Shown here piece by piece: positions 537 to 17,189 of a stretch of 20,051 nucleotides of DNA. The stretch's first letter is position 1. Each line of letters starts with the position of its first letter. Made by a program: the position numbers and the translations under genes. This DNA is from a virus. The stretch is from positions 1-20,051 of IMG/VR virus record IMGVR_UViG_3300006810_006100, one strand, 5' to 3'. The notes below the pieces were generated by a model. That model saw only the letters and a program-made list of their open reading frames with translations. It had not been told where the DNA came from and made no database searches.

Positions 537-565
537 AGTATAAGGGATGACTTCAAAGGTGTCAA
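537..565 (-). promoter_or_regulatory. sigma70-type promoter for the porin gene
   Basis: On the minus strand the -35 box TTGACA (560-565) and -10 box TATACT (537-542) are separated by exactly 17 bp. The -35 box overlaps the stop codon of the upstream GT25 gene (562-564). The start codon of the porin gene lies about 70 bp downstream. It closely resembles the tRNA promoter at 17590-17618: both share TTGACACCT, a 17-bp spacer and TATACTAAA. Confidence 0.8.
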
Positions 566-1350
566 GTGTTTACGGTACTCTCTACCACTCTTCCAAGATA
601 AGGATCATAATTCATCAACTCTTCCACAGATAATTGAGCTCCTTTTTGACTCCAGAAATTCATCTGTCCATCATAATTTCCACGATGGAATGCATCAATA
701 TGTTCCGGATGAATAGAGGAACCCAATTCAATGCGATAAAGAAGAAGAGGGACACTATAAGTATTTCCCGAATTGTAAATTAGATCATCAGCAACAGGAC
801 GAGGTTTTACTCCATTATCAAGTTTATACTTATCATCACGAACATGAAGTTTTAATAGTTTTTCTGCATGGTGACGAGTGATAATATAGCAAGCAGTAGA
901 GAACTCATTTACAAATCTCTTGTGAACTTTAACGTGAATATCTCCTGTACAAATGATGGCAATCTGAACTACATCCCAGTCATATGGAATACGACAATAG
1001 AAATCATCCCAAGTAAAGTTCCAGAACTTAACAAGATCTAAGTTGCAATCATCTTCCATGATAACTGCATAAGGACTATCAGAAGTTTCATACCAGTGTT
1101 TGATAGCCTTAAGGTGAGAAGTGACACAACCAATCTCACCAGAAGTCATCATCTCGGGATAACGACCTTTGATGATGTCACTCAGATCATCTTCTCTACC
1201 ATCATATGCAGAGATACAAGTATAGTTTTCAATCTCCCAGTACTTAAACTGGTTCTCCATATACTCTCTCCTCTCTGGTTGTCCATCCAGATTAAGATAG
1301 TAGATGGGTCCAAAGTTCTTAAGTTTAAAAGTTGATTTATTTTTATCCAT
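562..1350 (-). CDS. Glycosyltransferase family 25 (LPS biosynthesis type)
   Basis: This 262-aa protein has the GT25 hallmarks. The N-terminus reads IYYLNLDGQPERREYM (about 16-31), a central block reads GEIGCVTSHLKAIKHW (71-86), and the metal-binding motif is VIMEDDCNLD (about 96-105). The family transfers hexoses (galactose or glucose) to lipooligosaccharide or protein acceptors in the cytoplasm. The start codon overlaps the stop of the preceding GT15 gene by one base (TAATG), so translation is probably coupled. It is the last gene of the glycan operon, and the next gene has its own promoter. The exact sugar and linkage cannot be told from sequence. Confidence 0.85.
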   Translation of the reverse strand: MDKNKSTFKLKNFGPIYYLNLDGQPERREYMENQFKYWEIENYTCISAYDGREDDLSDIIKGRYPEMMTSGEIGCVTSHLKAIKHWYETSDSPYAVIMEDDCNLDLVKFWNFTWDDFYCRIPYDWDVVQIAIICTGDIHVKVHKRFVNEFSTACYIITRHHAEKLLKLHVRDDKYKLDNGVKPRPVADDLIYNSGNTYSVPLLLYRIELGSSIHPEHIDAFHRGNYDGQMNFWSQKGAQLSVEELMNYDPYLGRVVESTVNT

Positions 1351-2138
1351 TATACTGTATAAACTGCACCGTGCTGATATGTAAAACCTTGTACTGGAAT
1401 AACGTGCTCTGGTTCCATAAGAAGATTTACACCAAGATATTTAATAGGAGCATCACCCCATCTCTTAGTATAAAATCCACCAGTTTTATCCAACTCATTA
1501 TAAAATCTCATGTACTCACTTGTCAAGAACCATGATACTTTACCCAACTCAAAGTTAGTATAGAACATCATACCTTCTCCAATAAAGTTTTCTGGTATTA
1601 GTTCATTAACTGTTTGCCAAAGTCCTTCGATTACTTTTGGATTATCTTTCTGAATAGCAGGAGCAATAAACCCATAGTAACATCCAACATCCTCTGCCCA
1701 CTTAAAGATATCGTAATTAAGTGGAGTATGTATAAAAGAATCCGTATCTAATCTCAAATAATAATTATATTCTTTTATAACACTATTATTATATAATTCC
1801 CCAGAGAAAAATCTACACATGTGACGATATCCCATCGTAAATCCCGGATGTCCCCAGGCTACAGGACCATTACCATGAGTAGGGTGTGGGAAGAACTCGG
1901 GAATCTGATCTAGAATTTCTTTGGGATAATCAGGAACTTTAAACTCAATAGTTTCATATCTAAGATTTAAACTAGTATTAACCTTAGATTTGTATTCATC
2001 AAAAGACTCTTCACAGAATACTAATACATCAGTACCAGTAGTATATGGTATAAGATTTTCTTCTACTAATCTTAAAGACTTATTAAAATCTTCTACATCT
2101 TGGTCAGAAGATCTTACAAGATAAAGGATACAGTTCAT
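1350..2138 (-). CDS. GT15-like (Kre2/Mnt1-type) mannosyltransferase
   Basis: This is a 262-aa protein. The ATG at 2138 is chosen because it overlaps the upstream stop as ATGA; a GTG four codons earlier also exists. Visible motifs are a GT-A type DTD in YNYYLRLDTDSF (about 125-135), PHPTHGNGPVAWGHPG (about 84-99), RHMCRFF (about 105-111) and RWGDAP (226-231). The tyrosine-rich block before the acidic motif and the late RWGDAP are typical of GT15 alpha-1,2-mannosyltransferases, which are best known from fungi and use GDP-mannose. This fits an operon built around GDP-mannose derivatives. There is no N-terminal membrane anchor, unlike the fungal Golgi enzymes, so it is probably a cytoplasmic soluble enzyme. 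Confidence 0.8.
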   Translation of the reverse strand: MNCILYLVRSSDQDVEDFNKSLRLVEENLIPYTTGTDVLVFCEESFDEYKSKVNTSLNLRYETIEFKVPDYPKEILDQIPEFFPHPTHGNGPVAWGHPGFTMGYRHMCRFFSGELYNNSVIKEYNYYLRLDTDSFIHTPLNYDIFKWAEDVGCYYGFIAPAIQKDNPKVIEGLWQTVNELIPENFIGEGMMFYTNFELGKVSWFLTSEYMRFYNELDKTGGFYTKRWGDAPIKYLGVNLLMEPEHVIPVQGFTYQHGAVYTV

Positions 2139-3523
2139 AACATTTGCCACTCTTTATATGGAATCATATTGTCACTATGAGTTTGTGTAAATGACTTCGG
2201 ATAAATTACCTTATCATTTGGTTGATTTGAATCTAAGAATGCTGCCCAAAAACTAAAGGTAGATACATGCAAAATATGATACTCACATTCTACCATCTTC
2301 TTAAGTGATTGGAAAGCATCTCCAACAAAGATCTCAAAGTTCTGATTAAAGTTCTGACGGAACCAACTGAGTTTATTCTTTGCCATCTTATTGTCGTCAG
2401 AGAAGATATAAACCGTAGAGTCCTGAGGAATCATCATCAGAGCCTTTTCATAAAACTCATCATCAACATAACCATTCACATGATCATCTGCGGGACGAGT
2501 GCAAAATCTAAGATGAAGTGATGCTGTATTTGGATTTGTTTTAGTTCCTACAGATAGTTTTTCCCTTACACAATCAAGATTTTCTGCAGTAGAAAATCTG
2601 AACATATCATTTATAATAAACTTGGTATCAAAGTTTGCCTTAAGATTACCTTGCCAATTTAGATTTGGAAAGCAAGAAGTAATATCCCTATGTGATCCAT
2701 CATGACCACCAAGTAATCTATCGCAATTATATGATGATGGATACTTACCACCACCATTCCATAAGTCCCAAGTTCCAAACTTTGGTTCTGGAAGATTAAA
2801 CTTCTTACAGAAAGAGATTACTTCTGCCATTTGGAAAAGATTATTCCCAAGTCCACCATGAAGTGAAGTAGTGATAGTTTCTTCTTTAAAATCAACTGGA
2901 AGTTGAAGTGCTTTAGGAGAACTACTCACACTCACATCAATACCAAAGAATCCCATTATACACAACTGATATTCAGTATTATAAAAGAACTCTGGAGAAT
3001 CAACAATCAGAAAGTTATCTGGATACTTTTCTTGAAGATCATTTGCAATCTTGTAATACTCATCCCAATATTTTTCTGTAGCCTCGAATTCATCTTTAGA
3101 AGAACTTAGGTTTGGAAACTGATCAACTGCATATCGATTATGTCCTATACCAAGAGACCTATCTTTGACATAGCAAGGATTACGATAACCCCACGAAGTT
3201 GCAAGAGATTTAATAGAGTGTTCTCTCCTTCCCCTCAAACACAAAAATTTCATATCAGAATGTAGTTCAAGAAATTCTGGAACATATTTCAGATATGAAT
3301 GAGTAATATTTGTAGTGGTATCATGTAAGGAAACTCTTCTTAATCTTTCTTCTTTAGATAAAGATTCTGAATTCCAAATTAATCCATCACTATTCCAGGT
3401 CTCAAAACTATTTTGATATTTGGGGCCTCCACCTTTATATTTGATTGGCATATGGTTCTTAAGAATGTAATGAATTCTCAAAAATCCACATGCTCCAGAT
3501 CCAATAATATGAAACTTACTCAT
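2135..3523 (-). CDS. Fusion protein: sulfotransferase-like domain plus divergent GT11 (fucosyltransferase-like) domain
   Basis: This 462-aa protein has two parts. Residues 1 to about 210 look like a P-loop sulfotransferase: HIIGSGACGFLRIHYIL at the N-terminus resembles the PAPS 5'-phosphosulfate loop, and MKFLCLRGRREHSIKSL (about 91-107) resembles the 3'-phosphate site. Residues from about 217 onward are GT11-like: TTSLHGGLGNNLFQMAEV (about 218-234), SLHLRF (335-340), VYIFSDDNKMAKNKLSW and STFSFWAAFLDS. The usual GT11 donor motif HxRRGD is altered to HLRF, so donor choice may differ or activity may be reduced. It overlaps its neighbours by 8 bp upstream and 4 bp downstream. The GT11 part is well supported; the sulfotransferase assignment is an inference from motif shape. 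Confidence 0.7.
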   Translation of the reverse strand: MSKFHIIGSGACGFLRIHYILKNHMPIKYKGGGPKYQNSFETWNSDGLIWNSESLSKEERLRRVSLHDTTTNITHSYLKYVPEFLELHSDMKFLCLRGRREHSIKSLATSWGYRNPCYVKDRSLGIGHNRYAVDQFPNLSSSKDEFEATEKYWDEYYKIANDLQEKYPDNFLIVDSPEFFYNTEYQLCIMGFFGIDVSVSSSPKALQLPVDFKEETITTSLHGGLGNNLFQMAEVISFCKKFNLPEPKFGTWDLWNGGGKYPSSYNCDRLLGGHDGSHRDITSCFPNLNWQGNLKANFDTKFIINDMFRFSTAENLDCVREKLSVGTKTNPNTASLHLRFCTRPADDHVNGYVDDEFYEKALMMIPQDSTVYIFSDDNKMAKNKLSWFRQNFNQNFEIFVGDAFQSLKKMVECEYHILHVSTFSFWAAFLDSNQPNDKVIYPKSFTQTHSDNMIPYKEWQML

Positions 3524-4331
3524 AAGATAATCCTCTCAGTTCATACTCCCAACGAACATCAGTGTTCATTCTTGGTTTTCCATCTGCCTCAATAATCTGT
3601 CCCACAAATATTCCATACTCCATAGGTTCATGTTCAGGAAAAGGACGACTATCTTGATGAGTTGGATAGATTTCTCTATGAATATTATAAACATCCCTTT
3701 CAACATAGTTAATCAACCCAACACCATAAGCATCTTCCCAACTAACATGGTCTCCAGATTGATACGTTAGTTGTCCCGTGACTTTTGAATGTCTCCAGTG
3801 ATCGTGGCATAAGTGATCAAACTTAATCACAGGCCAAATTAAATTGTGAAGAACTTTTTGATCATCCTCTCGATTGATTGCTGATGGATTATCTAAATCA
3901 ATCTTACCATAACGTTCGTGAAAAAGTTTATTATTAACACCAAACATTCCTGCCATAATACTATATCCATGATTATGACAATCTCTCATCAAATGAACGG
4001 ATTTATCGGATTGCATCCATTCATCAACTGCTCTGCGTTCTCTCCAACTTAAACGACTATCACAATCTCTACTGATCCAGAAATCTACACAGTCATCGAT
4101 GAATGGACGAAACCTCCAGTTCAATCCATCATAAGAGTTATTCCTACGACAAATAAAAACCTCAGCATCATGGTCCTTGAGTTGGTGAACATACTCTTCA
4201 GGAACATCTTCCGCAACATAAAATCTTACAATCCAATCTGGATAGATTTCTTTTGCAAGACGTGCGTTTTCTACTGCACCAACACAATAAAGAGGATTAT
4301 CACCAAATAAACTAAACGTTATCAGATGCAT
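3516..4331 (-). CDS. Putative glycosyltransferase of unassigned family (RDCDSR motif)
   Basis: This is a 271-aa protein. The frame is open farther upstream, but the ATG at 4331 (MHLITFSLFGDNPLYC) is the natural start, because the upstream extension overlaps the real C-terminal coding of the methyltransferase in another frame. The layout is that of a GT-A enzyme: a short beta strand at the start, a stretch ending AEVFICRRNN (about 56-65), then FWISRDCDSRLSWRERRAV (84-102), in which DCD is a plausible metal-binding DxD. MRDCHNHGYSIMAGMFG follows, as in enzymes whose acceptor loop carries a second histidine. I cannot place it in a numbered family. It overlaps the next gene by 8 bp, and its operon position supports a sugar-transfer role. 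Confidence 0.65.
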   Translation of the reverse strand: MHLITFSLFGDNPLYCVGAVENARLAKEIYPDWIVRFYVAEDVPEEYVHQLKDHDAEVFICRRNNSYDGLNWRFRPFIDDCVDFWISRDCDSRLSWRERRAVDEWMQSDKSVHLMRDCHNHGYSIMAGMFGVNNKLFHERYGKIDLDNPSAINREDDQKVLHNLIWPVIKFDHLCHDHWRHSKVTGQLTYQSGDHVSWEDAYGVGLINYVERDVYNIHREIYPTHQDSRPFPEHEPMEYGIFVGQIIEADGKPRMNTDVRWEYELRGLSYE

Positions 4332-4530
4332 ACCAAGTTCCATAATAACAATCAGCACCATGGAATCCCTTTTCAGATCCACCTTTGTAAATCTTACCAA
4401 AATCACCAAGAACATCCGTAAATGTTTCTTTTGTAATTACATGAGGATGTGCTGTGTCTGCTGGCCAGTTAATACTTTCAAAAACACGAATGACTCTAGA
4501 TGTTTTCTTTGCCAGTTCAATTGTTCTTTT
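4312..4530 (-). pseudogene. Out-of-frame C-terminal part of the methyltransferase (-1 frame continuation)
   Basis: Reading the minus strand in the -1 frame from the A4 run at 4527-4530 to a TAG at 4312-4314 gives a coherent peptide. It includes IELAKKTSRVIRVFES, INWPADTAHPHVITKE, FGKIYKGGSEKGFHG and ADCYYGTWYASDNV. The HPH, GGS..GFH.ADC and YG.W blocks are what follows the VxxHVxDP motif in this type of methyltransferase. The 0-frame instead runs into an unrelated tail and stops at 4437. Joined across a -1 shift the protein would be about 198 aa and would overlap the next gene's ATG (4331) by 20 bp, in keeping with the rest of the operon. Either a one-base loss (A5 to A4), programmed slippage at CCA_AAA_G, or a sequence error explains it. 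Confidence 0.8.
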
Positions 4531-4907
4531 GGATCTATGACATGCTGAACAACATTAAAAAACCAAGTTTCGTCAACTTGCTCATCAATCTCTAGATTTT
4601 CATACGGAGCATCAACAATTTCTACCCCAATATCTTCATAATCCTTTCTGATCTCAGCAGGCCAACGATCAATCAAAGGTTCTACGAGAATGCCTCTCTT
4701 AAAGTTTCCTTTAGTGTGAAGAATAGAACCTCTAGGTCCCCCACCAACTTCTACAATTACCTTATCTTTAAAATCGTCCTCATAGTTAATCTCAAGATAT
4801 CTTTCAATAATTCGAGAAGCATGACTATATGCTTCTAATCTAAGATCTTGATGATGTGTAAATTCTGTGTCTTGAGCAAGTTGCCAACGATCCAAATCAA
4901 TTTTCAT
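4437..4907 (-). CDS. SAM-dependent methyltransferase, N-terminal part, frameshifted
   Basis: This is a 156-aa frame starting at ATG 4907, which overlaps the GT2 stop by one base. The SAM-binding motif is VIVEVGGGPRGSI (about 50-62), with an acidic strand end in ILVEPLID (about 73-80) and a later VDETWFFNVVQHVIDP, the post-motif II region of class I methyltransferases. After about residue 126 the 0-frame gives a tail (LNWQRKHLESFVFLKVLTG) that fits no family pattern, while the -1 frame continues the family pattern to 4312. In this operon the enzyme would methylate a sugar or glycan terminus. As it stands the product lacks its C-terminal third unless ribosomes slip at the A4 run near 4527-4530. 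Confidence 0.8.
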   Translation of the reverse strand: MKIDLDRWQLAQDTEFTHHQDLRLEAYSHASRIIERYLEINYEDDFKDKVIVEVGGGPRGSILHTKGNFKRGILVEPLIDRWPAEIRKDYEDIGVEIVDAPYENLEIDEQVDETWFFNVVQHVIDPKEQLNWQRKHLESFVFLKVLTGQQTQHILM

Positions 4908-5719
4908 TAAATCAATTCCCTATTTTCAATAATTCTTCGAGTATTTATTAGATCCTTATGACGATCATAAAAGATCTTTGTATTCTTATGATGTGCTTTC
5001 AAAAGCCATGAAGCAGGAGATCCAGAAACTCTTGTTTCTCCCCAAGAATCTTCACTTTCATAATCAATCCAATAAGCACCAACTACCTTTCCAAGTTCTT
5101 TATATGCACGATAACAAAGATCATGATCATCCATATCTTGAGGAACAAACACTTCATCAAGATAGTTTAGTTTTTTAAGATCTTCATGATCAATCATTAA
5201 AGGTCCACGATTAACTGAACAACGAACTGCAAACACATCTCTAGGTAAAGTATGTTTCCTATCAGCATGGTCTACATGATCAAGAATATCACACCAACAA
5301 TTATCAAGGTCATCAACTATCCCAAGATGTTTTGAGTTTGGATTCAAAGTCCAGTTATGAGCAGTTCTTGAAGTCACCGCAAAAACATCGTCAAATGCTT
5401 TGAATGGTTTTTCCATTCTTACATTCCAACCTTTCTCTTTGATAACCATATCATCTTGAACGATGATAATCTTATTACCATTCGAAGATTTCATTCCAAG
5501 ATTATTTGCAGTTGTCTCAAAGACATTAGGAGCATAAAGAATCTTTTTATTAACAGGAGTTCCGCTCAAAGTGTCCCAAATAACTTTTTCAGAGTTATCA
5601 GTACACCCATCAATAACTACAATAAGTTCGTAAGGTTCTAGAGTATTTTCAACTATACCCCGAATTACCTTATCAATCAACCACTCTTTATTATGAACTG
5701 TAAGTACAATACTATGCAT
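4907..5719 (-). CDS. Glycosyltransferase family 2
   Basis: This 270-aa GT-A protein begins directly with the nucleotide-binding strand MHSIVLTVHNKEWLIDKV. It carries ELIVVIDGCTDNS (31-43) and the DxD-type site IIIVQDDMVI (about 84-93). A later EVFVPQDMDDHDLCYRAYK (about 190-208) matches the catalytic ED-like region of family 2 enzymes. No membrane segments are seen, so it is a soluble cytoplasmic transferase rather than a processive synthase. It overlaps the preceding gene by 8 bp and touches the methyltransferase start. The donor sugar is unknown. Confidence 0.88.
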   Translation of the reverse strand: MHSIVLTVHNKEWLIDKVIRGIVENTLEPYELIVVIDGCTDNSEKVIWDTLSGTPVNKKILYAPNVFETTANNLGMKSSNGNKIIIVQDDMVIKEKGWNVRMEKPFKAFDDVFAVTSRTAHNWTLNPNSKHLGIVDDLDNCWCDILDHVDHADRKHTLPRDVFAVRCSVNRGPLMIDHEDLKKLNYLDEVFVPQDMDDHDLCYRAYKELGKVVGAYWIDYESEDSWGETRVSGSPASWLLKAHHKNTKIFYDRHKDLINTRRIIENRELI

Positions 5720-6446
5720 CTCTAATACTGATTAAGAACGAATCAATTTCTCTACCATAACCTCTAGCACCTCTTTCGTACCAGTAATCATAATCACATT
5801 CAATATAATTTCTATATTCTGAACCAGACACAGATAATCCTTCACGAATAGCAAGATTAGTTAGAACACTTTGATCGTTTCTATGTGCAATAAATCCAGG
5901 AAGTTCATTACCAAGAGTGCTCGGATCATTATTGATAATTTTGGAATTTTTACAAAACTCCAACCATTCAGATACTACTTTGATTGATTCATCACAAACT
6001 TTCCAAACCATAAATCCAGCTTCAAGTTGAGTTGAGTTGTGATAATCATCCTCATCACAGTTCATCTCAATAAAACAATCTCTCTTTGTATACTTTTTAT
6101 TCTTGTCATTTCCTAGAAGAAGTAAACAAATATCTTCAACAGAAACTGTTGCTTCAACGTATGATTGTAATCCAGGAGAGAACATGTCACCACAATCACA
6201 ATAAGCCACAAAGTCACCTTCATTACTATTTTTCATAGTATCTAAGATAACATAAGGTTTCCAGATCCACCAACCAGCACCTTTAGAATCATCCAGAATA
6301 TTTTGATTTTCTTTATAAAAATCTGTAGATACTATCCACTCTCGATTATATGGATGATGAATAAATTTCTCCTTATGTGTCTGATGAAGAAACTGTTGCT
6401 TTTTCTTAAAATTTTCATCAGAATATGTAACTAGATGCCAGTTCAT
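5712..6446 (-). CDS. Putative glycosyltransferase (GAGWWIWKP / DCGD protein)
   Basis: This 244-aa protein begins MNWHLVTYSDENFKKKQ. Two blocks stand out. GAGWWIWKPYVI (56-67) resembles the G-YG-W-WKP segment found in GT32/capsule-type transferases, and FVAYCDCGDMFSPG (79-92) contains a DCGD that could bind the metal and nucleotide. A later NDPSTLGNELPGFIAHRNDQSVLTNL segment resembles the 'H.R.DQS.L' element of the same enzymes. Its start overlaps the preceding stop (ATGA). A glycosyltransferase role is likely from these motifs and from context; family and substrate are not certain. Confidence 0.65.
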   Translation of the reverse strand: MNWHLVTYSDENFKKKQQFLHQTHKEKFIHHPYNREWIVSTDFYKENQNILDDSKGAGWWIWKPYVILDTMKNSNEGDFVAYCDCGDMFSPGLQSYVEATVSVEDICLLLLGNDKNKKYTKRDCFIEMNCDEDDYHNSTQLEAGFMVWKVCDESIKVVSEWLEFCKNSKIINNDPSTLGNELPGFIAHRNDQSVLTNLAIREGLSVSGSEYRNYIECDYDYWYERGARGYGREIDSFLISIRDA

Positions 6447-7324
6447 TCAATTCTCTCCTTTACATAATCTTGATTTTCATAATATTCAATCAATTGTTCT
6501 TTGGATAGTGTCTTTAGATAATCCCACAAATGATTATTGTTCTGCATATGTGGATTATGGAACCAAGAGTTTTGTGTTCTTTGGTGTTCCAAATGGTATG
6601 CATAGTTATCAACTCTACCAACATTATAACCTAAAACTTTCCATCTGTGATGTCTTTCTATATCTTCTGGCGCATAAGCAATAAACCCCTCATTCTCAAG
6701 ATAACCGTCAATATAAACCTGACGATTAAAGAATTGAACCATTCCATACTCTGCCCATCCAGCACCTTGATTGTGAGGATAGTAGAAGAAACGATCATCA
6801 AAACATACAGGACTATAATATGAACTTACGAATCGAGATACAAACTCTCCATTCTCAAAGTTATCCATATCTTCTTGAGTATCAATAGTAAATCCAAGGT
6901 TTACTTTTCTCTCACCATGAGTTCCAAAACGATAGGGATATACAACATCAAAATCACCTTGGAGCATATCAACTGCTTGAGTATAAGAATCTAAGGGAAG
7001 GATAATATCAGTATCATAGTTAACTACGATTTCTGTAGATGCCTCCATTATCATATCATTCAAAACTTTAGTACGATGAAATGCATCATCAGTACGAGTT
7101 TCATCCTCAAAAATATGACGAAGATTACTTATATCAACCAATCTTTTAATGATTGGTAATGCATATTCTTCAAACCTATGTTCAGAATCAACTTCTTTGA
7201 TAATCACATTAGTATCAAAATGATGAAGGAGATATGATGTTGTAAGGATTATATTTCTAAGTCTATCTCCAGTATCAATCCTCAAAGGAATAATAAAAGT
7301 TGTATTTTTCAAATCAGTTTTCAT
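6443..7324 (-). CDS. Galactosyltransferase-like GT-A glycosyltransferase (GT2/GT7 C-terminal type)
   Basis: This is a 293-aa protein. It opens with a family 2-like strand (TTFIIPLRIDTGDRLRNI) and has VVNYDTDIILP with the DxD at 104-106. The C-terminal block GFIAYAPEDIERHHRWKVLGY (213-233) followed by YAYHLEHQR (about 241-249) is the acceptor-side signature shared by the N-terminal half of chondroitin polymerase-like enzymes and beta-4-galactosyltransferases. It overlaps the preceding fucosyltransferase gene by 11 bp and the next gene by 4 bp. Likely a soluble hexosyl- or N-acetylhexosaminyl-transferase in the same pathway. Confidence 0.78.
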   Translation of the reverse strand: MKTDLKNTTFIIPLRIDTGDRLRNIILTTSYLLHHFDTNVIIKEVDSEHRFEEYALPIIKRLVDISNLRHIFEDETRTDDAFHRTKVLNDMIMEASTEIVVNYDTDIILPLDSYTQAVDMLQGDFDVVYPYRFGTHGERKVNLGFTIDTQEDMDNFENGEFVSRFVSSYYSPVCFDDRFFYYPHNQGAGWAEYGMVQFFNRQVYIDGYLENEGFIAYAPEDIERHHRWKVLGYNVGRVDNYAYHLEHQRTQNSWFHNPHMQNNNHLWDYLKTLSKEQLIEYYENQDYVKERIE

Positions 7325-8123
7325 TAATCATTCTCCACTCTTCAGGAAACAAATCTTTAGTAGATTTATCTAGGTTATTTGGACCAAACCACTTATCAGG
7401 GTAAACTACGGTCTTATTTTTATTATGCGATAACCAAGCTCCCCACCAAGAGAATGTGGAGTTTGCAATAATATAATCAGAACACAAGGTCATTAAGCAC
7501 ATATCTACATAAGGGTTTCCAGTTTCAACAACTAAAAATCTATCATCTTCAAATAATTTTTGTTCTTTACACCATTTAGGATCATCGGAAAATATGATAA
7601 CCTGTCTATCTTTATCAAATTCTCTCAATGCATTTTCATAATAACTCATTGAAAGATTATGATGATTTTTATGATTGATAATAAAATCCCCTCTACGAAT
7701 ATGTAAAGCAACAGGATTATCTAGAAGTGGTTTTGCTTCCTCACAAGCATCATAATACTCTTTCTTAAAAGTAAAATCTTTTCGAATATCATCTTCAATA
7801 TGTTTGAAATATTTTTCACTTTGGAAATATCCTACGAGTGAAACTCCATCTGGACAATTATTAAGAATATCTTCATCAAAGGTAAAATCCTTTTCACTTC
7901 GGACACCATCAGCCAAAAGAAACCCAACACCATCTGGTTGGATTTCAAATGCATCAAACAATTCAATTCTCAGAGTGTTCCCCAAAGAATCTTTAATAGC
8001 ATTATCGTGTTGTGGAATAGTAAACTCATATCTCCTATTCTTAGCAACTCCTTTTACTGCAGCATATTGGAACATCTGGTTGCCCAGTTGTCCCATCCTA
8101 CCAAGATAGTTTAATCCAATCAT
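7314..8123 (-). CDS. GT11 alpha-1,2-fucosyltransferase-like protein (second copy)
   Basis: This is a 269-aa protein starting at the ATG at 8123; the frame also opens at a GTG five codons earlier. The ATG is preferred because its N-terminus MIGLNYLGRMGQLGNQMFQY matches that of the upstream paralogue. Family motifs are GQLGNQMFQYAA (11-22), ALHIRRGDF (139-147, the GDP-fucose binding HxRRGD), IIFSDDPKWC and STFSWWGAWLS near the C-terminus. It would transfer fucose from GDP-L-fucose, the product of Gmd and Fcl in the same operon. It overlaps the paralogue upstream by 26 bp, consistent with tandem duplication. Confidence 0.9.
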   Translation of the reverse strand: MIGLNYLGRMGQLGNQMFQYAAVKGVAKNRRYEFTIPQHDNAIKDSLGNTLRIELFDAFEIQPDGVGFLLADGVRSEKDFTFDEDILNNCPDGVSLVGYFQSEKYFKHIEDDIRKDFTFKKEYYDACEEAKPLLDNPVALHIRRGDFIINHKNHHNLSMSYYENALREFDKDRQVIIFSDDPKWCKEQKLFEDDRFLVVETGNPYVDMCLMTLCSDYIIANSTFSWWGAWLSHNKNKTVVYPDKWFGPNNLDKSTKDLFPEEWRMINEN

Positions 8124-8952
8124 CGGGAATAATATCACTAGAATCTATATTTGCGGAAGGTCCAAACCAATAATTTGGAGCAACAACTTTCTTATTTTTG
8201 TTTTTAATCAACCAAGCACCCCACCAACTGAAAGAACTATTTGCTATTATACCATCGGAACAAAGAGACATCAAGCACAAATCAGTATAAGGAATCAATG
8301 AATTTCTTAACTGACCGTCAGCATCTTTATGTAAATGAGAATATCTTTCATTATTTTCTGAGAGATAAAATCTATCACCAGAAAAGATCTCTTGTTCAGA
8401 ACACCAAGAAATATCATCAGAGAATATAAGAACTGGATAATCTTCAGGAAACTCCTCTAGTGCTCTACGATAATAATCAATCCCACAAGTAGGATGATAG
8501 TTTTGAAGATTTAAATAATCTCCCCGACGAACATGAAGAAAGACTACCTTTCCCTCAAACTGATCGATAAAGTCCTTACATGGATTAAAATACTCATCTA
8601 TAAATTCAAAATCAGATATAATGAGATCTTCTACTGGTTTGAAATATTTTTCACTTTGAAAATAATCTTCAAGATTACAATTATCTGGACACTGATCTAT
8701 AAGTTCTTGATTGAAAGTAAATGTGGGTGATTTGAATGTTGGAAATCCAGAAGGAACAAATCCCAAATTCTTTTCTTTTACACTTGACATCTTGAAGCAA
8801 TCAAAGAGTCCATAATTTGCTTCATACTTACTTGTAGGGGGAGGAATCACCCAATCATATCCGTGCTTTTCGGTTATGCAACGAAATCCTGCATACTGAA
8901 ACATTTGATTTCCGAGTCTACCATTAGACCCAAGACGATTATATCCAATCAT
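8098..8952 (-). CDS. GT11 alpha-1,2-fucosyltransferase-like protein (first copy)
   Basis: This is a 284-aa protein. The start at 8952 overlaps the dehydrogenase stop as ATGA. It contains GRLGNQMFQYAGFRC (11-25), FLHVRRGDYL (138-147), VLIFSDDISWCSEQ and NSSFSWWGAWLIKNKNK. These are the three conserved blocks of GT11 inverting fucosyltransferases, which act on terminal galactose with GDP-L-fucose as donor. It is clearly paralogous to the next gene, which shares the N-terminal pattern, the QSEKYFK block and the C-terminal PD-WFGP region. An extra segment around residues 185-200 (SENNERYSHLHKD) is not in the second copy. Confidence 0.9.
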   Translation of the reverse strand: MIGYNRLGSNGRLGNQMFQYAGFRCITEKHGYDWVIPPPTSKYEANYGLFDCFKMSSVKEKNLGFVPSGFPTFKSPTFTFNQELIDQCPDNCNLEDYFQSEKYFKPVEDLIISDFEFIDEYFNPCKDFIDQFEGKVVFLHVRRGDYLNLQNYHPTCGIDYYRRALEEFPEDYPVLIFSDDISWCSEQEIFSGDRFYLSENNERYSHLHKDADGQLRNSLIPYTDLCLMSLCSDGIIANSSFSWWGAWLIKNKNKKVVAPNYWFGPSANIDSSDIIPDDWIKLSW

Positions 8953-10103
8953 AAATTTACAACAAAAAACGGTTCAGTTATATTTTCTGTATTATCTACA
9001 AATTTTACTCTATCTCCATAAGAAGTAATCATATTATCATAAATTTGGTCGGTTACTTTCTTATCGTTACGAATGTAAACAACATAACCACGATCAAGAA
9101 GATCTAAACATAGACGATATTGTTGACTTTCAGTAAGAATATCTGTTCCCTTTTTATAGGTGATAGAATCAAAATAGAATGGTTTCTTATTTGAATTCAT
9201 CTTCTCAAAATAATCACATACAAATTTAGCATGTTGAGTATTGATTTCATCGGTTACTGTTCCAAGATTATATTCCAATCCAACTTTTTTAGCAAAAGAT
9301 GCAAAAGATCGATTATCTCTAGGAAGACATGGACCACCATAACCAAATCCATATCCCAAATACTTTCTTCCAATACGACTGTCAGTTCCTATTGCAGAAA
9401 GAACTGAAGTCACTTCATCACCACATCCAGCCTGGTGGAGAACATCTCCAAGCATATTTGCATAACTGATTTTAGTGGTCAAGAAGCAGTTAATGGCAAT
9501 CTTAGTAATTTCTGCTGCAGTTGTTGACATTGAGCAGACAATAGCACGAGTTGTTTGAATTTTTTCATACAACTTTCTAATTTCAGAAATAACATTATCA
9601 TTATCTGCGAAAGGATCTGCTCCAAGTAAAACCATATCAGCAATACGGAGATCATTAATGATCGATCCTTGTGCGATAAATTCTGGATTATAAAAAACTT
9701 TTACATTATTTGGAAGTTGTTTTTTAAAGTTATTGCAGTCACCGGGATTAGTCGTACATCCAACTACAAAATATTTTTTATTAGTTACATTCTGAAAATC
9801 TTCAACAACTTTCCATACATTAGATACATCATAAGAACCATCTTCAAGAGATGGAGTTGCAACAAGTGTATAGATGAGATCACACTCATCAATAACTTCT
9901 TTATTGTTTGTAGTTGCTCTGAAGTTCTTAGCAACTTTAAGAAGATTTTCTACTTCTGGTTCATTTGTCTTGATCTTTCTTTGATTCAAGTCATTCACAT
10001 AATCCTCTAGGATATCTGAAACGAGAACATCATATCCCGCTGCTTCGCACAACAGAGCAAAACAAATACCAAGTCTACCAGCACCAATTACACCAATTTT
10101 CAT
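8949..10103 (-). CDS. UDP-glucose / GDP-mannose dehydrogenase family protein
   Basis: This is a 384-aa NAD-dependent nucleotide-sugar dehydrogenase. The Rossmann motif is IGVIGAGRLG (3-12). The central region includes VVGCTTNPGD (113-122), FYNPEFIAQGS (137-147) and TTAAEITKIAINCF (194-207, with the conserved lysine). The catalytic cysteine is in GFGYGGPCLPRD (252-263, Cys259). These enzymes oxidise the sugar C6 alcohol to a uronic acid with two NAD+, so UDP-glucuronate or GDP-mannuronate is expected. The last about 100 residues are the nucleotide-binding C-terminal domain and look shorter and more divergent than in bacterial Ugd, so the substrate nucleotide is uncertain. It is translationally coupled (ATGA) to the NAD+ synthetase upstream. 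Confidence 0.88.
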   Translation of the reverse strand: MKIGVIGAGRLGICFALLCEAAGYDVLVSDILEDYVNDLNQRKIKTNEPEVENLLKVAKNFRATTNNKEVIDECDLIYTLVATPSLEDGSYDVSNVWKVVEDFQNVTNKKYFVVGCTTNPGDCNNFKKQLPNNVKVFYNPEFIAQGSIINDLRIADMVLLGADPFADNDNVISEIRKLYEKIQTTRAIVCSMSTTAAEITKIAINCFLTTKISYANMLGDVLHQAGCGDEVTSVLSAIGTDSRIGRKYLGYGFGYGGPCLPRDNRSFASFAKKVGLEYNLGTVTDEINTQHAKFVCDYFEKMNSNKKPFYFDSITYKKGTDILTESQQYRLCLDLLDRGYVVYIRNDKKVTDQIYDNMITSYGDRVKFVDNTENITEPFFVVNL

Positions 10104-10840
10104 AGTTTGAATGTAGGAATAGGATTCATTTTATGTTGATTCATTTGACTGAACTTAAGAAGTGCTTCAAGTCCTGGTCCCGAGCCAGTTTCCATAGCTT
10201 CTTCAAGCTCAGCATAAGAAGCACCGATTTGATCTTCATCAGTTCTTCCATCATCCCATAATCCATCAGTAGGAGAGGCATCAATAATGCGTTGATCTAC
10301 ACCAAAATGTCTGCCAAGTTCCCAAACTTCAGTCTTATAGAGATCTGCGATAGGAGCAATATCAACTCCACCGTCACCATATTTAGTATAAAACCCCACA
10401 CCATAATCTTCAACCTTGTTACCAGTACCGACAACAATACCACCAACAGAAGTAGCAACCTGATAAAGAGTCACCATACGAAGACGTGAGCGACTATTGG
10501 CAAGTGCATGTTTGTCATGTCCCAATTCACACATCGTAAACTGGAAGGTATCAAATACTTTAGAAAGATCAAACTTATTAACAATCACATTACTAAAGTT
10601 TGATTCAAGCCATTCTAGATGTGCATCAGAAAGACTTTCTTGATCTTCTTTCTGGTGAATAGGCATACCTAAAGCATAAACGGGAAGACCTGTTTTGGCA
10701 GCAAGAGTTGATGATACTGCAGAATCAATACCACCAGAAACTCCAATAACAAGTGAATTAATATTATTTTGAATTGTATAATCTTTTATCCAAGAAACGA
10801 TACGAGTTTCAAGTTCAAAATAGTCAGAGATGCGATTCAT
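10100..10840 (-). CDS. nadE: NAD+ synthetase (NadE)
   Basis: This is a 246-aa ammonia-dependent type NAD synthetase. It has the ATP pyrophosphatase loop VIGVSGGIDSAV (31-42), NSRSRLRMVTLY (about 115-126), VVGTGNKVEDYGVGFYTKYGDGG, IADLYKTEVWELG and SPTDGLWDDGRTDEDQIG. These are the ATP, NaAD and P2-loop regions of the family. It has no glutaminase domain, so it would use free ammonia. It sits between the epimerase gene (3 bp gap) and the dehydrogenase (4 bp overlap), which suggests it supports NAD+ supply to the nucleotide-sugar oxidoreductases. A changed substrate is possible, because some NadE-like proteins in glycan clusters act as amidotransferases. Confidence 0.88.
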   Translation of the reverse strand: MNRISDYFELETRIVSWIKDYTIQNNINSLVIGVSGGIDSAVSSTLAAKTGLPVYALGMPIHQKEDQESLSDAHLEWLESNFSNVIVNKFDLSKVFDTFQFTMCELGHDKHALANSRSRLRMVTLYQVATSVGGIVVGTGNKVEDYGVGFYTKYGDGGVDIAPIADLYKTEVWELGRHFGVDQRIIDASPTDGLWDDGRTDEDQIGASYAELEEAMETGSGPGLEALLKFSQMNQHKMNPIPTFKL

Positions 10841-10843
10841 TTT

Positions 10844-11914
10844 TCAGACAGAATGATATTTTACTGTTACCGGACTTACTTGTTGTTTAATCCAGGAATA
10901 TGTCTTAGAAATGCCTTCTTCAAGAGTCATGGTATAATCCCACCCCAACTCTTTTCGAATCAAATCGTTGTTACTGTTACGACCACGAACACCAAGAGGT
11001 GCATCAAGTTTATGAGTTTTCTTAACAGGAATACCAGCAACATTTGCTGCAATATCTACAAGTTTATTAATAGTGACCATTTCCTCAGAACCAATATTTA
11101 CTGGCCCGATAAAATTAGAATCCATCATACGACGAGTTGCTTCAATACACTCATCAATAAACAGGAATGAACGAGTCTGTTCTCCATCACCCCATACTTC
11201 AATTGTTCCACCAACATCAGGAAGTTCTGCTACTTTCCTGCAAATAGCTGCAGGTGCCTTTTCCCTACCACCAGTCCAAGTTCCTTCTGGTCCAAAAATA
11301 TTGTGGTATCGAGCAACACGTACAGGAATACCATAGTTGCGATGATAAGCAAAATACAAACGTTCTGAAAAGAGTTTTTCCCAACCATATTCGGAATCTG
11401 GGTTAGCAGGATATGCAGACTCTTCACGACAATCAGGATTGTCTGGATCAAGTTGGTTATGCTCCGGATACATGCAAGCAGAACCAGAGTAGAAGATCTT
11501 TGTTACATTCTTGCCAAGAAAATCATTAAACTTTCTTACAGACTCAAGTACATTCAGATTAATTGACACTGAGTTGTGCATGATGTCAGCATCATTCTCA
11601 CCAGTAAATACAAATCCTGCACCTCCCATATCGGCAGCAAACTGATAGATTTCATCAAATGCCTGAAGATATCGTGAAGGAACAAACTTATAAAAGTTTC
11701 CACGATCACCTTTATATTGAATAACTCTTTCAACAAAAGCAACATCCCTAAGATCTCCAACAATAAACTCATTTGCTTGAGTTTTAGAAAACTCAGGTTT
11801 TTTAAGATCCACACCACGAACCCAATATCCTTCTGCTCGCAGTCTCTTTACCATATGACTTCCAATAAAACCACCAGCACCAAGTACAAGTGCCTTCTTT
11901 ACATACTGTTCCAT
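10844..11914 (-). CDS. GDP-mannose 3,5-epimerase (plant GME-like)
   Basis: This is a 356-aa short-chain epimerase. The NAD motif is VLGAGGFIGSHM (about 10-21). The blocks AADMGGAGFVF, FYSGSACMYPEHNQL, the catalytic YxxxK in EYGWEKLFSERLY, YHNIFGPEGTWTGGREKAPAA, WGDGEQTRSFLFIDEC, GPVNIGSEEMVTIN and GVRGRNSNNDLI all match plant GDP-mannose 3,5-epimerase, including the active-site cysteine in the SSAC.YP-like segment. The enzyme converts GDP-D-mannose to GDP-L-galactose and GDP-L-gulose. It lies 19 bp after the fucose synthase gene, with AAGGAG upstream of its ATG. In a phage operon it would supply an L-hexose donor rather than ascorbate. Confidence 0.9.
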   Translation of the reverse strand: MEQYVKKALVLGAGGFIGSHMVKRLRAEGYWVRGVDLKKPEFSKTQANEFIVGDLRDVAFVERVIQYKGDRGNFYKFVPSRYLQAFDEIYQFAADMGGAGFVFTGENDADIMHNSVSINLNVLESVRKFNDFLGKNVTKIFYSGSACMYPEHNQLDPDNPDCREESAYPANPDSEYGWEKLFSERLYFAYHRNYGIPVRVARYHNIFGPEGTWTGGREKAPAAICRKVAELPDVGGTIEVWGDGEQTRSFLFIDECIEATRRMMDSNFIGPVNIGSEEMVTINKLVDIAANVAGIPVKKTHKLDAPLGVRGRNSNNDLIRKELGWDYTMTLEEGISKTYSWIKQQVSPVTVKYHSV

Positions 11915-11933
11915 AAAAACTTTTTACTCCTTA

Positions 11934-12869
11934 TTATGTAGATTGATTTTCTTTGTACCATTCATATGTAGATCGAATACCATCTCTCAAATTTATCGTT
12001 GGTTTCCAACCAAGAGATTTAATCTTATCTACATTTAGAACTTTACGTGGAGTGCCATTTGGTTTCGTTACATCCCAATTAATATTTCGATTGTATCCAA
12101 CAATATCTGCGATTGTTTCAGCAAGTTCTTTGATTGTTACATCTCCACCAGTTCCAACATTAATATGATCACTATCCTCATAGTGTTTCATACAAATATA
12201 ACATGCTTCTGCAAGATCGTCAACATGAAGAAACTCTCTCATAGAAGATCCATCTCCCCAAAGTTTGACTTCATAATGATCACTATGATTAAGGGCAGCA
12301 TGAAACTTTGCAATCATCGCAGGAAGAACATGTGAAGTTACTAGATCAAAGTTATCGTTAGGTCCATAAAGATTAGTTGGCATCAAAGAGATTGCATTAA
12401 ATCCATATTGTTCTTTATATGCCTGGCACATTTTAATTCCAGCAATTTTTGCAATAGCATATGCATCATTTGTTGGTTCCAGTGGACCAGTCATCAACTG
12501 ATCTTCTGCAATAGGTTGAGATGCAAACTTAGGATAAATGCAAGAAGACCCAAGGAATAAAAGTTTTTTTATACCAAAGTTATAAGATTGCTGAATAAGA
12601 TTAGTTTGAATTTGTAGGTTCTCTGTCAGAAACTCTGCTTTATGGTTGTTGTTTGCCATAATGCCACCAACTTTGGCTGCAGCAACAAAAACATATTCTG
12701 GTTCTTCGGAAGAAAAGTATCTTTCAGTTTCTTCTTGATTTGTAAAGTCAACATCACTACGTGTTCCTCTAATAATATTAGAGTATCCTTTACTTTCAAG
12801 ATTTCTCACGATTGCCGATCCTACCATTCCATTAGCACCAGCAACTAGTACTTTACTATCTTTGTTCAT
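11934..12869 (-). CDS. fcl: GDP-L-fucose synthase
   Basis: This is a bifunctional GDP-4-keto-6-deoxymannose 3,5-epimerase/4-reductase. The motifs are [15 protein letters not shown] near the N-terminus, [22 protein letters not shown], the catalytic YxxxK in [42 protein letters not shown] and [15 protein letters not shown]. It uses NADPH to complete GDP-L-fucose from the Gmd product. The start is ATG 12869 (MNKDSKV). A GTG two codons upstream (12875) has better spacing from the AAGGA at about 12881-12885 and could be used instead. It overlaps gmd by 14 bp. Confidence 0.93.
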
Positions 12870-13860
12870 TAACACACATATCCTTTACTAATTGGTCAAA
12901 AGATGTCTTTGGATACCACCCAAGTTTTGTTCTTGCTTTTGTAGAATCTCCAAGAAGAGTTTCTACTTCTGCTGGTCTGAAATATCGATCACTTACACGA
13001 ATGATAACACGATTAGTATTTGTATCGATGCCAACTTCATCTAAATCTTCACCTTCCCATCGAATATTCATTCCAAAATAAGGAGCACATTTTTCAACAA
13101 ACTCTCTCACAGAATGTTGTTCATTTGTGGAAACAACATAATCATCTGCCTCATCCTGTTGAAGCATCATCCACATAGCCTCAACAAAATCTGCAGCATG
13201 TCCCCAATCTCGAAGAGCATTTAAGTTGCCAAGATACAAACAATCTTGCTTTCCGATATAAATGGCAGCAAGACCCATGGTAATCTTACGAGTTACAAAA
13301 GTTTCACCTCGTCGTGGAGATTCGTGATTGAAAAGAATTCCTGAACTTGCATGAATATCATATGATTCACGATAGTTCTTAGTGATCCAGTGTCCATATA
13401 ACTTTGCCACCCCATATGGAGAACGAGGATAAAACGGAGTAGTTTCTTTCTGAGGAATCTCTTGAACAAGACCAAACATTTCGGAAGTTGATGCTTGATA
13501 AAAACGAGTTTTATTTTGGAGACCAAGAATACAAATGGCATCGAGAAGACGAAGAGTTCCTAGAGCATCTACCTCTCCAGTATACTCTGGCATCTCAAAT
13601 GAAACCTTCACATGACTTTGCGCTGCCAAGTTATAGATTTCCGTTGGTTGAACTTTCTGAATAATCTTAAGAATGTTTGTAGAGTCATTCAGATCTCCAT
13701 AATGAAGTTTGATCTTATCAAAGATATGATCAATACGATGAGTATTGATCAAAGAACTTCTTCTAACAATACCATGAACTTCATACCCTTTACTCAACAA
13801 AAACTCGGCAAGATAAGATCCATCTTGTCCTGTGATTCCTGTGATCAATGCAATACCCAT
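12856..13860 (-). CDS. gmd: GDP-mannose 4,6-dehydratase
   Basis: This is a 334-aa protein from the ATG at 13860 ([20 protein letters not shown]); an in-frame TTG two codons earlier is less likely. Motifs are the dinucleotide loop GITGQDG (8-14), [12 protein letters not shown], the catalytic [22 protein letters not shown] with the Yxxx[19 protein letters not shown], and [19 protein letters not shown] near the C-terminus. It removes water from GDP-D-mannose to give GDP-4-keto-6-deoxymannose, the precursor for Fcl. It is the first gene of the operon, about 20 bp after the -10 box at 13880-13885. Confidence 0.95.
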
Positions 13861-13879
13861 ACACAATATCTTTTTTTCT

Positions 13880-14115: not shown

Positions 14116-14340
14116 TCACAGTCTACCATCAGAAAGTTTCTCAATATTATTCTTAGGGTTTGTCTTTAGAACAGAAATTAAGGTTTCTAATTTGATTTCC
14201 AATTCTACTACCTTTGTCTCCAATTCTACTACCTTTGTCTCCAATTCTACTACCTTTGTCTCCAATTCTTTAGTGTTAGTTGAAGAAATTGTAGATACAG
14301 TTGCAGAAACTGGTGTTGAAGTAGTCTTTTTGATTACCAT
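14116..14340 (-). CDS. Small coiled-coil protein with exact heptad repeats
   Basis: This is a 74-aa protein from the ATG at 14340 (MVIKKTTSTPVS); an in-frame TTG ten codons earlier is unlikely. A Ser/Thr-rich N-terminus (about 5-23) is followed by ELETKVVELETKVVELETKV, a perfect three-copy heptad with L and V in a/d positions, then LEIKLETLISVL. This predicts an oligomeric coiled coil. At DNA level the heptads are exact 21-bp tandem copies. A late-promoter octamer (GATAAATA) lies 21 bp before the start. No family recognised; a small structural or oligomerisation protein is plausible. Confidence 0.7.
   Translation of the reverse strand: MVIKKTTSTPVSATVSTISSTNTKELETKVVELETKVVELETKVVELEIKLETLISVLKTNPKNNIEKLSDGRL
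14198..14269 (-). repeat. Exact 21-bp tandem repeat (3 copies plus a partial) inside the coiled-coil gene
   Basis: The plus strand shows tccaattctactacctttg-tc repeated at 14198-14218, 14219-14239 and 14240-14260 without a mismatch, and a fourth copy is begun (tccaattct). Each unit is one heptad (LETKVVE). Identical synonymous codons mean recent slippage or duplication. Confidence 0.93.
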
Positions 14341-14360
14341 TTTTAAAAGAAGTTTTGATT

Positions 14361-14368
14361 TATTTATC
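14361..14368 (-). promoter_or_regulatory. T4-type late promoter octamer (GATAAATA)
   Basis: The minus strand reads GATAAATA, matching the NATAAATA late consensus used by T4-like cyanophages. It is 21 bp before the coiled-coil gene start and overlaps the stop codon of the preceding gene. The match is short and AT-rich, so it is only suggestive. Confidence 0.45.
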
Positions 14369-14612
14369 AATCATCTTTTACATAGCAAGGAACTCGATCT
14401 GGATCTAACCAACATGTATAATCATAATCTTCCATAGCAGTCATTAACTGCATTTCATTATCACAAAGATACATGTCACGGTATCGTCCAGTGTAAGAGT
14501 CTATCTTTTGAATACGATAATCAGGTTTCCCATTGATTTCCAAGGTGCCAACTTGGACATAACGATAAGGGAACCTTTCCATAATAACAGTAGGTTTCCT
14601 GATTACTTTCAT
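14367..14612 (-). CDS. Hypothetical protein, 81 aa
   Basis: The ATG at 14612 overlaps the upstream stop (TGATG), so translation is coupled. The protein (MKVIRKPTVIMERFPYRY...) is soluble, rich in Tyr and Asp, and ends CYVKDD. It contains QVGTLEINGKPDYRIQKID and a YDYTCWLDPDRVP segment. I do not recognise a family. The regular beta-like pattern in the first half suggests a small globular fold. Confidence 0.75.
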   Translation of the reverse strand: MKVIRKPTVIMERFPYRYVQVGTLEINGKPDYRIQKIDSYTGRYRDMYLCDNEMQLMTAMEDYDYTCWLDPDRVPCYVKDD

Positions 14613-14980: not shown

Positions 14981-14983
14981 AAG

Positions 14984-15055
14984 TGGTTCTGCGGAGAATT
15001 GAACTCCGTTCAGACACTTATAAGGTGTCGGCCTTAACCAATAGGCGACAGAACC
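14984..15055 (-). tRNA. tRNA-Ile(UAU)
   Basis: Acceptor GGTTCTG/CAGAACC, D-arm GCC/GGC, anticodon arm GACAC-CTTATAA-GTGTC with anticodon UAU, and T-arm CGGAG-TTCAATT-CTCCG all pair fully. The discriminator is A and CCA is not encoded. It would read the rare AUA codon. Confidence 0.9.
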
Positions 15056-15061
15056 ATGAAA

Positions 15062-15082
15062 ATCACGAACCCTCTTCGTGAT
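15062..15082 (-). terminator. 8-bp hairpin at the end of the antitoxin gene
   Basis: The arms atcacgaa (15062-15069) and ttcgtgat (15075-15082) with a 5-nt loop span the last codons of the Phd-like gene. A short T-run (TTTT) follows on the minus strand, then tRNA-Ile. It may act as a weak terminator or as a processing signal ahead of the tRNA. Confidence 0.45.
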
Positions 15083-15290
15083 CAGTGTGAATGAGTATTA
15101 TATCCTCACTCACACCACATTCTTCAAAGACATGTACCACTTCTTTATATGGCACCATAACTGAGCTGCCGTGCTCACTCGTTATGATAAATGATTCTCC
15201 TTGTTCTACTCTATTCATAAGATTGTCAAAGTCATTTTGAAACTCTTCTACTGTGAATGATTTAAGTTCAGAAATCTCTTGCATTTTCAT
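15063..15290 (-). CDS. Phd/YefM-like antitoxin
   Basis: This is a 75-aa protein; start at ATG 15290 (MKMQEISEL), with a second ATG two codons later. The body LKSFTVEEFQNDFDNLMNRV, EQGESFIITSEHG, SSVMVPYKEVVHVFEE is the prevent-host-death fold: a short strand, two helices, then the GE.FIIT..G..V.V..Y.E signature. The acidic C-terminal tail would be the toxin-binding arm. No toxin gene is next to it, so it could neutralise a host toxin or serve as a DNA-binding regulator. It sits between tRNA-Pro and tRNA-Ile and is probably co-transcribed with them. Confidence 0.82.
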   Translation of the reverse strand: MKMQEISELKSFTVEEFQNDFDNLMNRVEQGESFIITSEHGSSVMVPYKEVVHVFEECGVSEDIILIHTDHEEGS

Positions 15291-15307
15291 AAAGTGAGTT
15301 TTATGAG

Positions 15308-15379
15308 TCGGGGTGACTGGTATCGAACCAGCGTCTTCTTGCTCCCAAAGCAAGCCGTCTACCTCTGACTTACACCCCG
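15308..15379 (-). tRNA. tRNA-Pro(UGG)
   Basis: Acceptor CGGGGTG/CACCCCG, D-arm GTC/GAC, anticodon arm CTTGC-TTTGGGA-GCAAG (anticodon UGG) and T-arm around GGTTCGATACC all pair well. CCA is not encoded. It lies 22 bp after a consensus -10 box. Confidence 0.92.
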
Positions 15380-15493
15380 TTATTTGTTTTTGTGTACAAT
15401 CATTATACCTAAGATTGGAACCATTGTCAAGAGGTAGCAAAGTATTCCAAGAAACACATTATTATTTAATAGATTTACGACAAGGTGATTCAT
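15380..15493 (-). CDS. 37-aa membrane mini-protein
   Basis: The reading frame starts at ATG 15493 and overlaps the preceding stop as ATGA. AAGGA lies five bases before the start. It encodes MNHLVVNLLNNN and one strongly hydrophobic helix (VFLGILCYLLTMVPILGIMI) followed by VHKNK, as in a single-pass protein with a basic tail. It ends one base before tRNA-Pro, and the tRNA promoter lies inside its coding sequence. No family is recognised. The good ribosome binding site, stop/start coupling and clear membrane helix argue that it is real. Confidence 0.6.
   Translation of the reverse strand: MNHLVVNLLNNNVFLGILCYLLTMVPILGIMIVHKNK
15402..15430 (-). promoter_or_regulatory. Perfect sigma70 promoter for tRNA-Pro and the antitoxin
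   Basis: Minus strand TTGACA (15425-15430), 17 bp and TATAAT (15402-15407): a perfect match to the bacterial consensus. It is placed within the 37-aa gene and 22 bp before the mature tRNA-Pro 5' end. Confidence 0.88.
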
Positions 15494-15669
15494 TTTTCCT
15501 TAAGTAACTCCTCTATTCTACGACGCATATCTTCGGATTCTTTTTTGTCTATCTCACAGTGCTTATAACCTCTTTGTCCTTTAATAATCATTGTTCCCTG
15601 GTAAAACATTGTAGCACCAAAGACCAATAAAAGCAAGCAACCAATCAGTTCAATGTGATTTTGAGCCAT
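15490..15669 (-). CDS. 59-aa membrane protein with charged helical tail
   Basis: Starts at ATG 15669 (MAQNHIELIG), inside the end of the preceding gene. One hydrophobic segment (IGCLLLLVFGATMFYQGTMI, about 9-28) is followed by a basic then acidic helix (DKKESEDMRRRIEELLKEK). The shape is of a small bitopic membrane protein with a coiled-coil-like tail. No family is recognised. It is coupled at both ends to other tiny genes. Confidence 0.7.
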   Translation of the reverse strand: MAQNHIELIGCLLLLVFGATMFYQGTMIIKGQRGYKHCEIDKKESEDMRRRIEELLKEK

Positions 15670-15845
15670 GGTAATAATGGCGGTATTACTCCAATAAGTC
15701 GAAGCAGACCCTCAGCAAAAAGAGCAAGAACAACCCAACCAACACACATTGAAATAATCGAAGCATTACGATTATGTCTTCGTATGGCATCATCAATCAT
15801 CTCCTGCACTTCAGTTCTAGTAATAAATTCATCATGAGGTTCCAT
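15645..15845 (-). CDS. 66-aa membrane protein
   Basis: Starts at ATG 15845, overlapping the preceding stop (TGATG). It has an N-terminal acidic helix (MEPHDEFITRTEVQEMIDDA, then IRRHNRN) and a long hydrophobic C-terminal half (ASIISMCVGWVVLALFAEGL, then LRLIGVIPPLLPWL) that could form one or two membrane helices. Function unknown. It overlaps the 59-aa gene by 25 bp in another frame. Confidence 0.7.
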   Translation of the reverse strand: MEPHDEFITRTEVQEMIDDAIRRHNRNASIISMCVGWVVLALFAEGLLRLIGVIPPLLPWLKITLN

Positions 15846-15994
15846 CACTTCTCATCTCCAAGAAACTTTGCTAGAGGATCTCTTCTTGTCTTAACTATCT
15901 CTACTGCTCTCTTATAAAACATGTTATCTGTATTACCAGATGTTTCAAATGTTTCCTTTATACGGACCCAATTATTATAAGTATGTTGGTCCAT
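15845..15994 (-). CDS. Hypothetical protein, 49 aa
   Basis: Starts at ATG 15994 (MDQHTYNNWVRIKETFETSG) and ends KTRRDPLAKFLGDEK. It is small, soluble and helical, with the start preceded by CACGGAA. It is the first gene after the promoter-like sequence at 16014-16046 and is coupled to the next gene. Not recognised. Confidence 0.65.
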   Translation of the reverse strand: MDQHTYNNWVRIKETFETSGNTDNMFYKRAVEIVKTRRDPLAKFLGDEK

Positions 15995-16013
15995 TTCCGT
16001 GATGCGTATTACT

Positions 16014-16046
16014 ATTATATACTAATCAAGAGTTTTCCAAAGTCAA
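16014..16046 (-). promoter_or_regulatory. Possible promoter for the small membrane-protein genes
   Basis: The minus strand has TTGACT (16041-16046) and TATAAT (16014-16019), but the spacing is 21 bp. An AGTATA box at 17 bp is an alternative. The position, 20 bp before the 49-aa gene, is right. Confidence 0.4.
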
Positions 16047-16073
16047 CTCAATGTCAGCATTTTGTAACAATAC

Positions 16074-16109
16074 GATACAGAAAACCGAATAAAATTTTAA
16101 ATCTGTATC
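16074..16109. repeat. Inverted repeat between tRNA-Ser and the 49-aa gene
   Basis: The arms gatacaga (16074-16081) and tctgtatc (16102-16109) are perfect 8-bp inverted copies around 20 AT-rich bases. It could end or punctuate the tRNA-Ser transcript. The rest of 16047-16123 holds nothing recognisable. Confidence 0.4.
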
Positions 16110-16123
16110 TTATGTAACTAAAA

Positions 16124-16210
16124 CGGTAGCGACTGGATTTGAACCAGTGGAGGTGTTACCCTCATTTGTTTTCAAGACAAACGCAATAAACCGGACTCTG
16201 CCACGCTACC
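16124..16210 (-). tRNA. tRNA-Ser(UGA)
   Basis: An 87-nt class II tRNA with acceptor GGTAGCG/CGCTACC, anticodon arm TTTGT-CTTGAAA-ACAAA (anticodon UGA), a long variable arm (GAGGGTAACACCTC) and T-arm ACTGG-TTCAAAT-CCAGT. The discriminator is G. Confidence 0.93.
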
Positions 16211-16219
16211 AATAAAAGA

Positions 16220-16465: not shown

Positions 16466-16586
16466 CTTGCAATAATCTCCTAATCTCTAATAGTTCCAAC
16501 TTAATAATATCAAGTTCTTCATGAATATCTTGGTGGTGAAACCTCAAAGGTTTTTGAATCAGTTTGTTAAAGGTTTTCTTTTTCAT
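16413..16586 (-). CDS. Hypothetical helical protein, 57 aa
   Basis: The start at ATG 16586 overlaps the dps stop (ATGA). The protein is MKKKTFNKLIQKPLRFHHQD, then a long amphipathic helix (ELDIIKLELLEIRRLLQDVN) that could be a coiled coil. No family. The large overlap with the next gene makes one of the two starts less certain. Confidence 0.6.
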   Translation of the reverse strand: MKKKTFNKLIQKPLRFHHQDIHEELDIIKLELLEIRRLLQDVNREMQGLQQGDSKHE

Positions 16587-17017: not shown

Positions 17018-17033
17018 TATACTCTTTTTGGAG

Positions 17034-17041: not shown

Positions 17042-17045
17042 TAAG

Positions 17046-17118: not shown

Positions 17119-17143
17119 GAAAGGTGATGAGTGCCCACCACCA

Positions 17144-17187: not shown

Positions 17188-17189
17188 AA

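Follow-up and report, generated by a model that had tools for sequence, protein, structure and literature searches.

A one-base frame break private to one viral contig in a probable methyltransferase gene of a glycan cassette

In one gene of the viral contig studied here, the two parts of a conserved protein lie in different reading frames. Did the virus lose a base, did the assembled sequence lose one, or does the frame change serve to control expression of the gene? The initial annotation had left four options open: a one-base loss, phase variation, programmed -1 slippage, and a sequence error. The window analyzed (20,051 bases) spans an entire virus record of IMG/VR. Its gene for the small subunit of ribonucleotide reductase has 91% identity to those of the Synechococcus phages S-SM2 and SynMITS9220M01, which suggests that the window most probably represents a piece of a T4-like cyanophage; searches for DNA matches between the window and named phages returned none in either near or distant mode. 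The gene in question sits within a long run of glycan genes on the minus strand (about 562-13866), which includes glycosyltransferases of Pfam families 2, 11, 15, and 25 together with genes resembling sugar-nucleotide enzymes by sequence.

The initial annotation placed a SAM-binding N-terminal half in one frame and a conserved C-terminal third in the -1 frame, and our analysis confirmed this arrangement. The 0-frame ORF (4907-4437; Table 1) encodes the SAM-binding part to about residue 129; about 26 residues read out of frame follow before the stop. In the -1 frame no stop interrupts the stretch between 4554 and the TAG at 4314-4312, and the last 69 codons of this frame hold the conserved HPH, GGS..GFH.ADC, and YG.W positions. 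The peptide encoded by these 69 codons shares as much as 83% identity with intact relatives over their C-terminal part, and the frame change is therefore not a chance reading. Equally sound was the observation that the joined protein would overlap the next gene by 20 bp: an ATG lies at 4331, and the overlap is kept in the 22 closest relatives, where its DNA is nearly invariant in both reading frames.

Table 1. Features of the methyltransferase locus, in window positions.
Feature	Position	Strand	Evidence
0-frame ORF, 156 aa, stop TAA at 4439-4437	4437..4907	-	ORF and alignment
Conserved C-terminal third, 69 aa plus stop, -1 frame	4312..4521	-	alignment with relatives
Zone with both frames open, to which any rescue by -1 slippage is confined	4439..4554	-	frame scan
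One-column gap, third position of codon 130	4518..4519	-	DNA alignment with intact relatives
A4 run, not the lesion	4527..4530	-	shared with intact relative L009
20-bp overlap of methyltransferase end and next gene's start (ATG at 4331)	4312..4331	-	conserved in the 22 closest relatives
Upstream glycosyltransferase family 2 gene, intact	4907..5719	-	ORF, Pfam, comparison with relatives
Downstream cassette gene, 271 aa, without Pfam family, intact	3516..4331	-	ORF, Pfam, comparison with relatives

Eleven close relatives were found in IMG/VR through the N-terminal part, and an alignment of these brought the set to 33. In all 33 the gene occupies a single open frame of 193-199 codons, and in each of the 22 closest it has exactly 198. 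None is frameshifted, and none ends at the 0-frame stop, whereas an ending there in all homologues was what the initial annotation had named as a refutation. The 198-aa homologues in the cyanophage-like contigs L013-L034 have the same neighbor genes and the same 20-bp overlap as the window, and the window's N-terminal part is 76-93% identical to its eleven closest homologues; however, the L013-L034 homologues are each in one open frame while the frame of the window copy breaks at codon 130. No other viral contig matched a degenerate pattern built for the shifted joint, so that the existence of the allele receives no independent support. Patterns for two stretches specific to the window (the NWPADTAHP codons and a 27-mer around motif I) were also without a match, and there was thus no copy from the same strain to compare.

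To locate the break we used a DNA alignment of the window and 11 close relatives (609 columns). The sole gap in the window row is at column 390, between bases 4519 and 4518. The initial annotation had set the joint at an A4 run, near CCA_AAA_GAA (4525-4533), and this has to be corrected: the missing column falls eight bases past the run (4530-4527). Moreover, the intact relative L009 carries the stretch GATCCAAAAGAACAATT, identical to that of the window, which shows the A4 run to be native rather than the lesion. In practice, frame changes should be placed by alignment with homologues and not at the nearest run of A.

What does the broken gene encode? Modeled with AlphaFold2 (pLDDT 79, pTM 0.80), an intact relative has a Rossmann-type fold with seven strands in class I order (residues 50-54, 71-75, 95-98, 111-117, 137-146, 171-174, and 186-193). 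The best PDB matches of this model are SAM methyltransferases (top Z 13.5, 3.4 A, 172 residues). They include UbiG (4kdr/5dpm), NodS (3ofk), NovO (5mgz), and PH0226 (1ve3), which share the fold with Z of 12-13.5 over 172-182 residues; these named class I enzymes are only 10-12% identical to the family, and their substrates are not transferable to it. Motif I is present after strand 1 as the glycine-rich VEVG[GAS]GP at 52-58, in the form VEVGGGP, and the end of strand 2 carries an acidic residue, the invariant E76 of an EPL at 76-78. Pfam gave no family at its cut-off, with only weak matches to Methyltransf_11/23 (E 0.05-0.11), and NCBIfam gave nothing useful; matching a curated family makes annotation easier but does not define the class I fold. 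From the model and the motifs, the gene probably encodes a small class I SAM-dependent methyltransferase, and its position among glycan genes points to a sugar or glycan as the substrate.

The PHROG family phrog_3603, whose function is unknown, matches over residues 48-191 (E 3.6e-18), and hypothetical proteins of Synechococcus phage ACG-2014f are 31% identical over residues 51-192. These proteins are distant and unannotated, and they are uninterrupted across the matched stretch. The C-terminal part matched nothing in named phages, and the family alignment, run against bacterial and archaeal genomes, found no relative, so that no host source is indicated.

The break, at residue 130, falls ahead of strand 5 in the modeled structure of the intact relative. 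The 0-frame product is therefore missing beta-strands 5-7 as well as the invariant positions of the C-terminal part, including the HPH and FHxxDCYYG region. Judged by the strands missing from the model, this truncated product should be inactive.

We propose that one base was lost within codon 130 of the window copy, relative to every intact homologue, and that translation would then continue for 26 codons out of frame to the stop at 4437. Among the sequences searched the break is private to this contig, and the loss would be recent. We infer a biological rather than a technical origin for the frame break, and slightly favor a genuine recent deletion that left a pseudogene allele (probability about 0.5) over an error in the consensus.

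That error, a base dropped in sequencing or assembly from the consensus of a 20-kb metagenome contig while the gene of the virus itself is intact, is a serious contender to which we give somewhat less than even odds. In agreement with it, the break is a singleton against 33 relatives, the shifted joint occurs in no other contig, and all of the neighboring genes are intact. The codons after the break are also still constrained: their mean pairwise dN/dS is 0.168 for pairs that include the window and 0.149 for pairs of intact relatives. Because these values are close, they show no clear decay, and the break is either recent or not real, that is, an error in the assembled sequence. Private changes in the window number 9 in the 68 codons after the break compared to 6 in the 129 before it. 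This excess may be a weak hint of relaxed constraint, but it is confounded by the divergence of the window from all relatives, which climbs already before the break. The closest relative shifts along the gene, from 99% identity to L003 at the 5' end to about 75-80% around the lesion. We considered recombination at the lesion but do not claim it, as the local drop in identity begins ahead of this point and the searches turned up no donor.

Antonov et al. (2013; PMC3711429) attributed singleton frameshifts to recent indels or sequencing errors, and expected errors over genuine indels where homologues confirm the frame, as for singleton frameshifts of conserved genes. Their singletons resemble the window in that the break is supported by homologues and is not conserved in a cluster; on the other hand, they came from complete prokaryotic genomes and the window is a metagenomic virus contig. 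Two observations argue against an error. Indel errors usually arise in long homopolymers, and the site is not one; and none of 280 homologous gene-locus pairs was broken in comparable IMG/VR contigs, a count that could overlook a break close to the end of a gene and that includes some nearly duplicate contigs. Since the other cassette genes of the window were likewise all full length where compared with relatives, such breaks, real or technical, are rare in this group, and errors of this kind are rare in this type of data. A consensus error and a real deletion fit about equally well and, of the four options in the initial annotation, these are the two that are supported, though indistinguishable here; phase variation and programmed slippage are not.

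Compensated or programmed -1 frameshifting, in which ribosomes slip at CC_A_AAA_G and make some full-length enzyme, is very unlikely. The A_AAA (4530-4527) fits the Z_ZZN tetranucleotide pattern and is correctly in register, it lies upstream of the lesion, and the direction needed is indeed -1; tetranucleotide slippage and compensated indels have been reviewed (PMC5009743). However, none of the 33 relatives needs a shift, and the tetranucleotide also occurs in the intact gene of L009. An in-register X_XXY_YYZ heptamer is absent between 4554 and 4439. The downstream stem-loop that the initial annotation proposed to look for did not appear, as the RNA there folds worse than most shuffles (z = +1.16) and forms no stable hairpin. 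Slippage at the A4 run would also alter residues 128-130, and Q129 and L130 are invariant in the close family. A slimmer chance still is that the frame break is real but leaky, so that weak -1 slippage on A_AAA yields a little full-length enzyme and the phage-encoded glycan methylation is tuned down rather than lost.

Phase variation would switch a glycan modification on and off reversibly through strand slippage. Genes for surface glycans, among which this one is found, are a typical phase-variable class. Nevertheless we regard this reading as exceedingly improbable: the lesion is outside repeats, the nearest run is the unaltered A4, no tandem repeat was found near the lesion, and no relative among the 33 is in an off state. 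The notion that the gene has been split into two, the halves being made as separate subunits, has a negligible probability despite the conserved sequence of both halves, as all relatives are fused and the C-terminal frame lacks any ATG, GTG, or TTG start, which also disposes of an internal restart in that frame.

With no relative shifted, no repeat at the lesion, and no start in the C-terminal frame, what remains is a one-base loss private to the contig, in the virus or in the assembly. The finding thus amounts to an ordinary singleton break in the frame of an uncharacterised phage methyltransferase and not to a hidden control switch.

Several other features of the window were observed. An exact 21-bp tandem repeat at 14198-14269 (3.4 copies, 100% match) lies within a small ORF (14116-14370) and encodes repeated ETKVVEL; length variation is more plausible here than at the A4 run. 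At 11934-13866 two genes resemble GDP-mannose dehydratase and GDP-fucose synthase. This pair has no match at the same place in the close relatives with the same cassette (L013, L014, and L016-L019), and close copies (74-79%) occur only in L037 and L038. We claim no tie between these fucose-type genes and the frame break, as the methyltransferases of L037 and L038 are intact and more distant. A putative fucosyltransferase-type gene at 8098-8952 is 56% identical to the relatives' copies, compared to about 90% for its neighbors, and this suggests a local gene replacement. ARAGORN made eight tRNA calls in 14983-17572 (Ile, Pro, Ser, Val, Asn, one undetermined, Gly, and Arg), several of which overlap spurious plus-strand ORFs. 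At the contig end, an ORF at 1-498 with a signal-like N-terminus and a segment like the S-layer-homology domain resembles cyanobacterial porins and is about 85% conserved across 11 related contigs.

Taken alone, a private one-base loss in a single gene of the phage's glycan cassette is of little importance. Were the break real, translation would end about 105 bases short of the start of the next gene and the overlap would be lost, and coupled translation of the gene at 3516-4331 could drop too. The window would then carry a natural null allele, and the methyltransferase step would be dispensable in this cassette, which holds a conserved, uncharacterised methyltransferase family that has no Pfam model.
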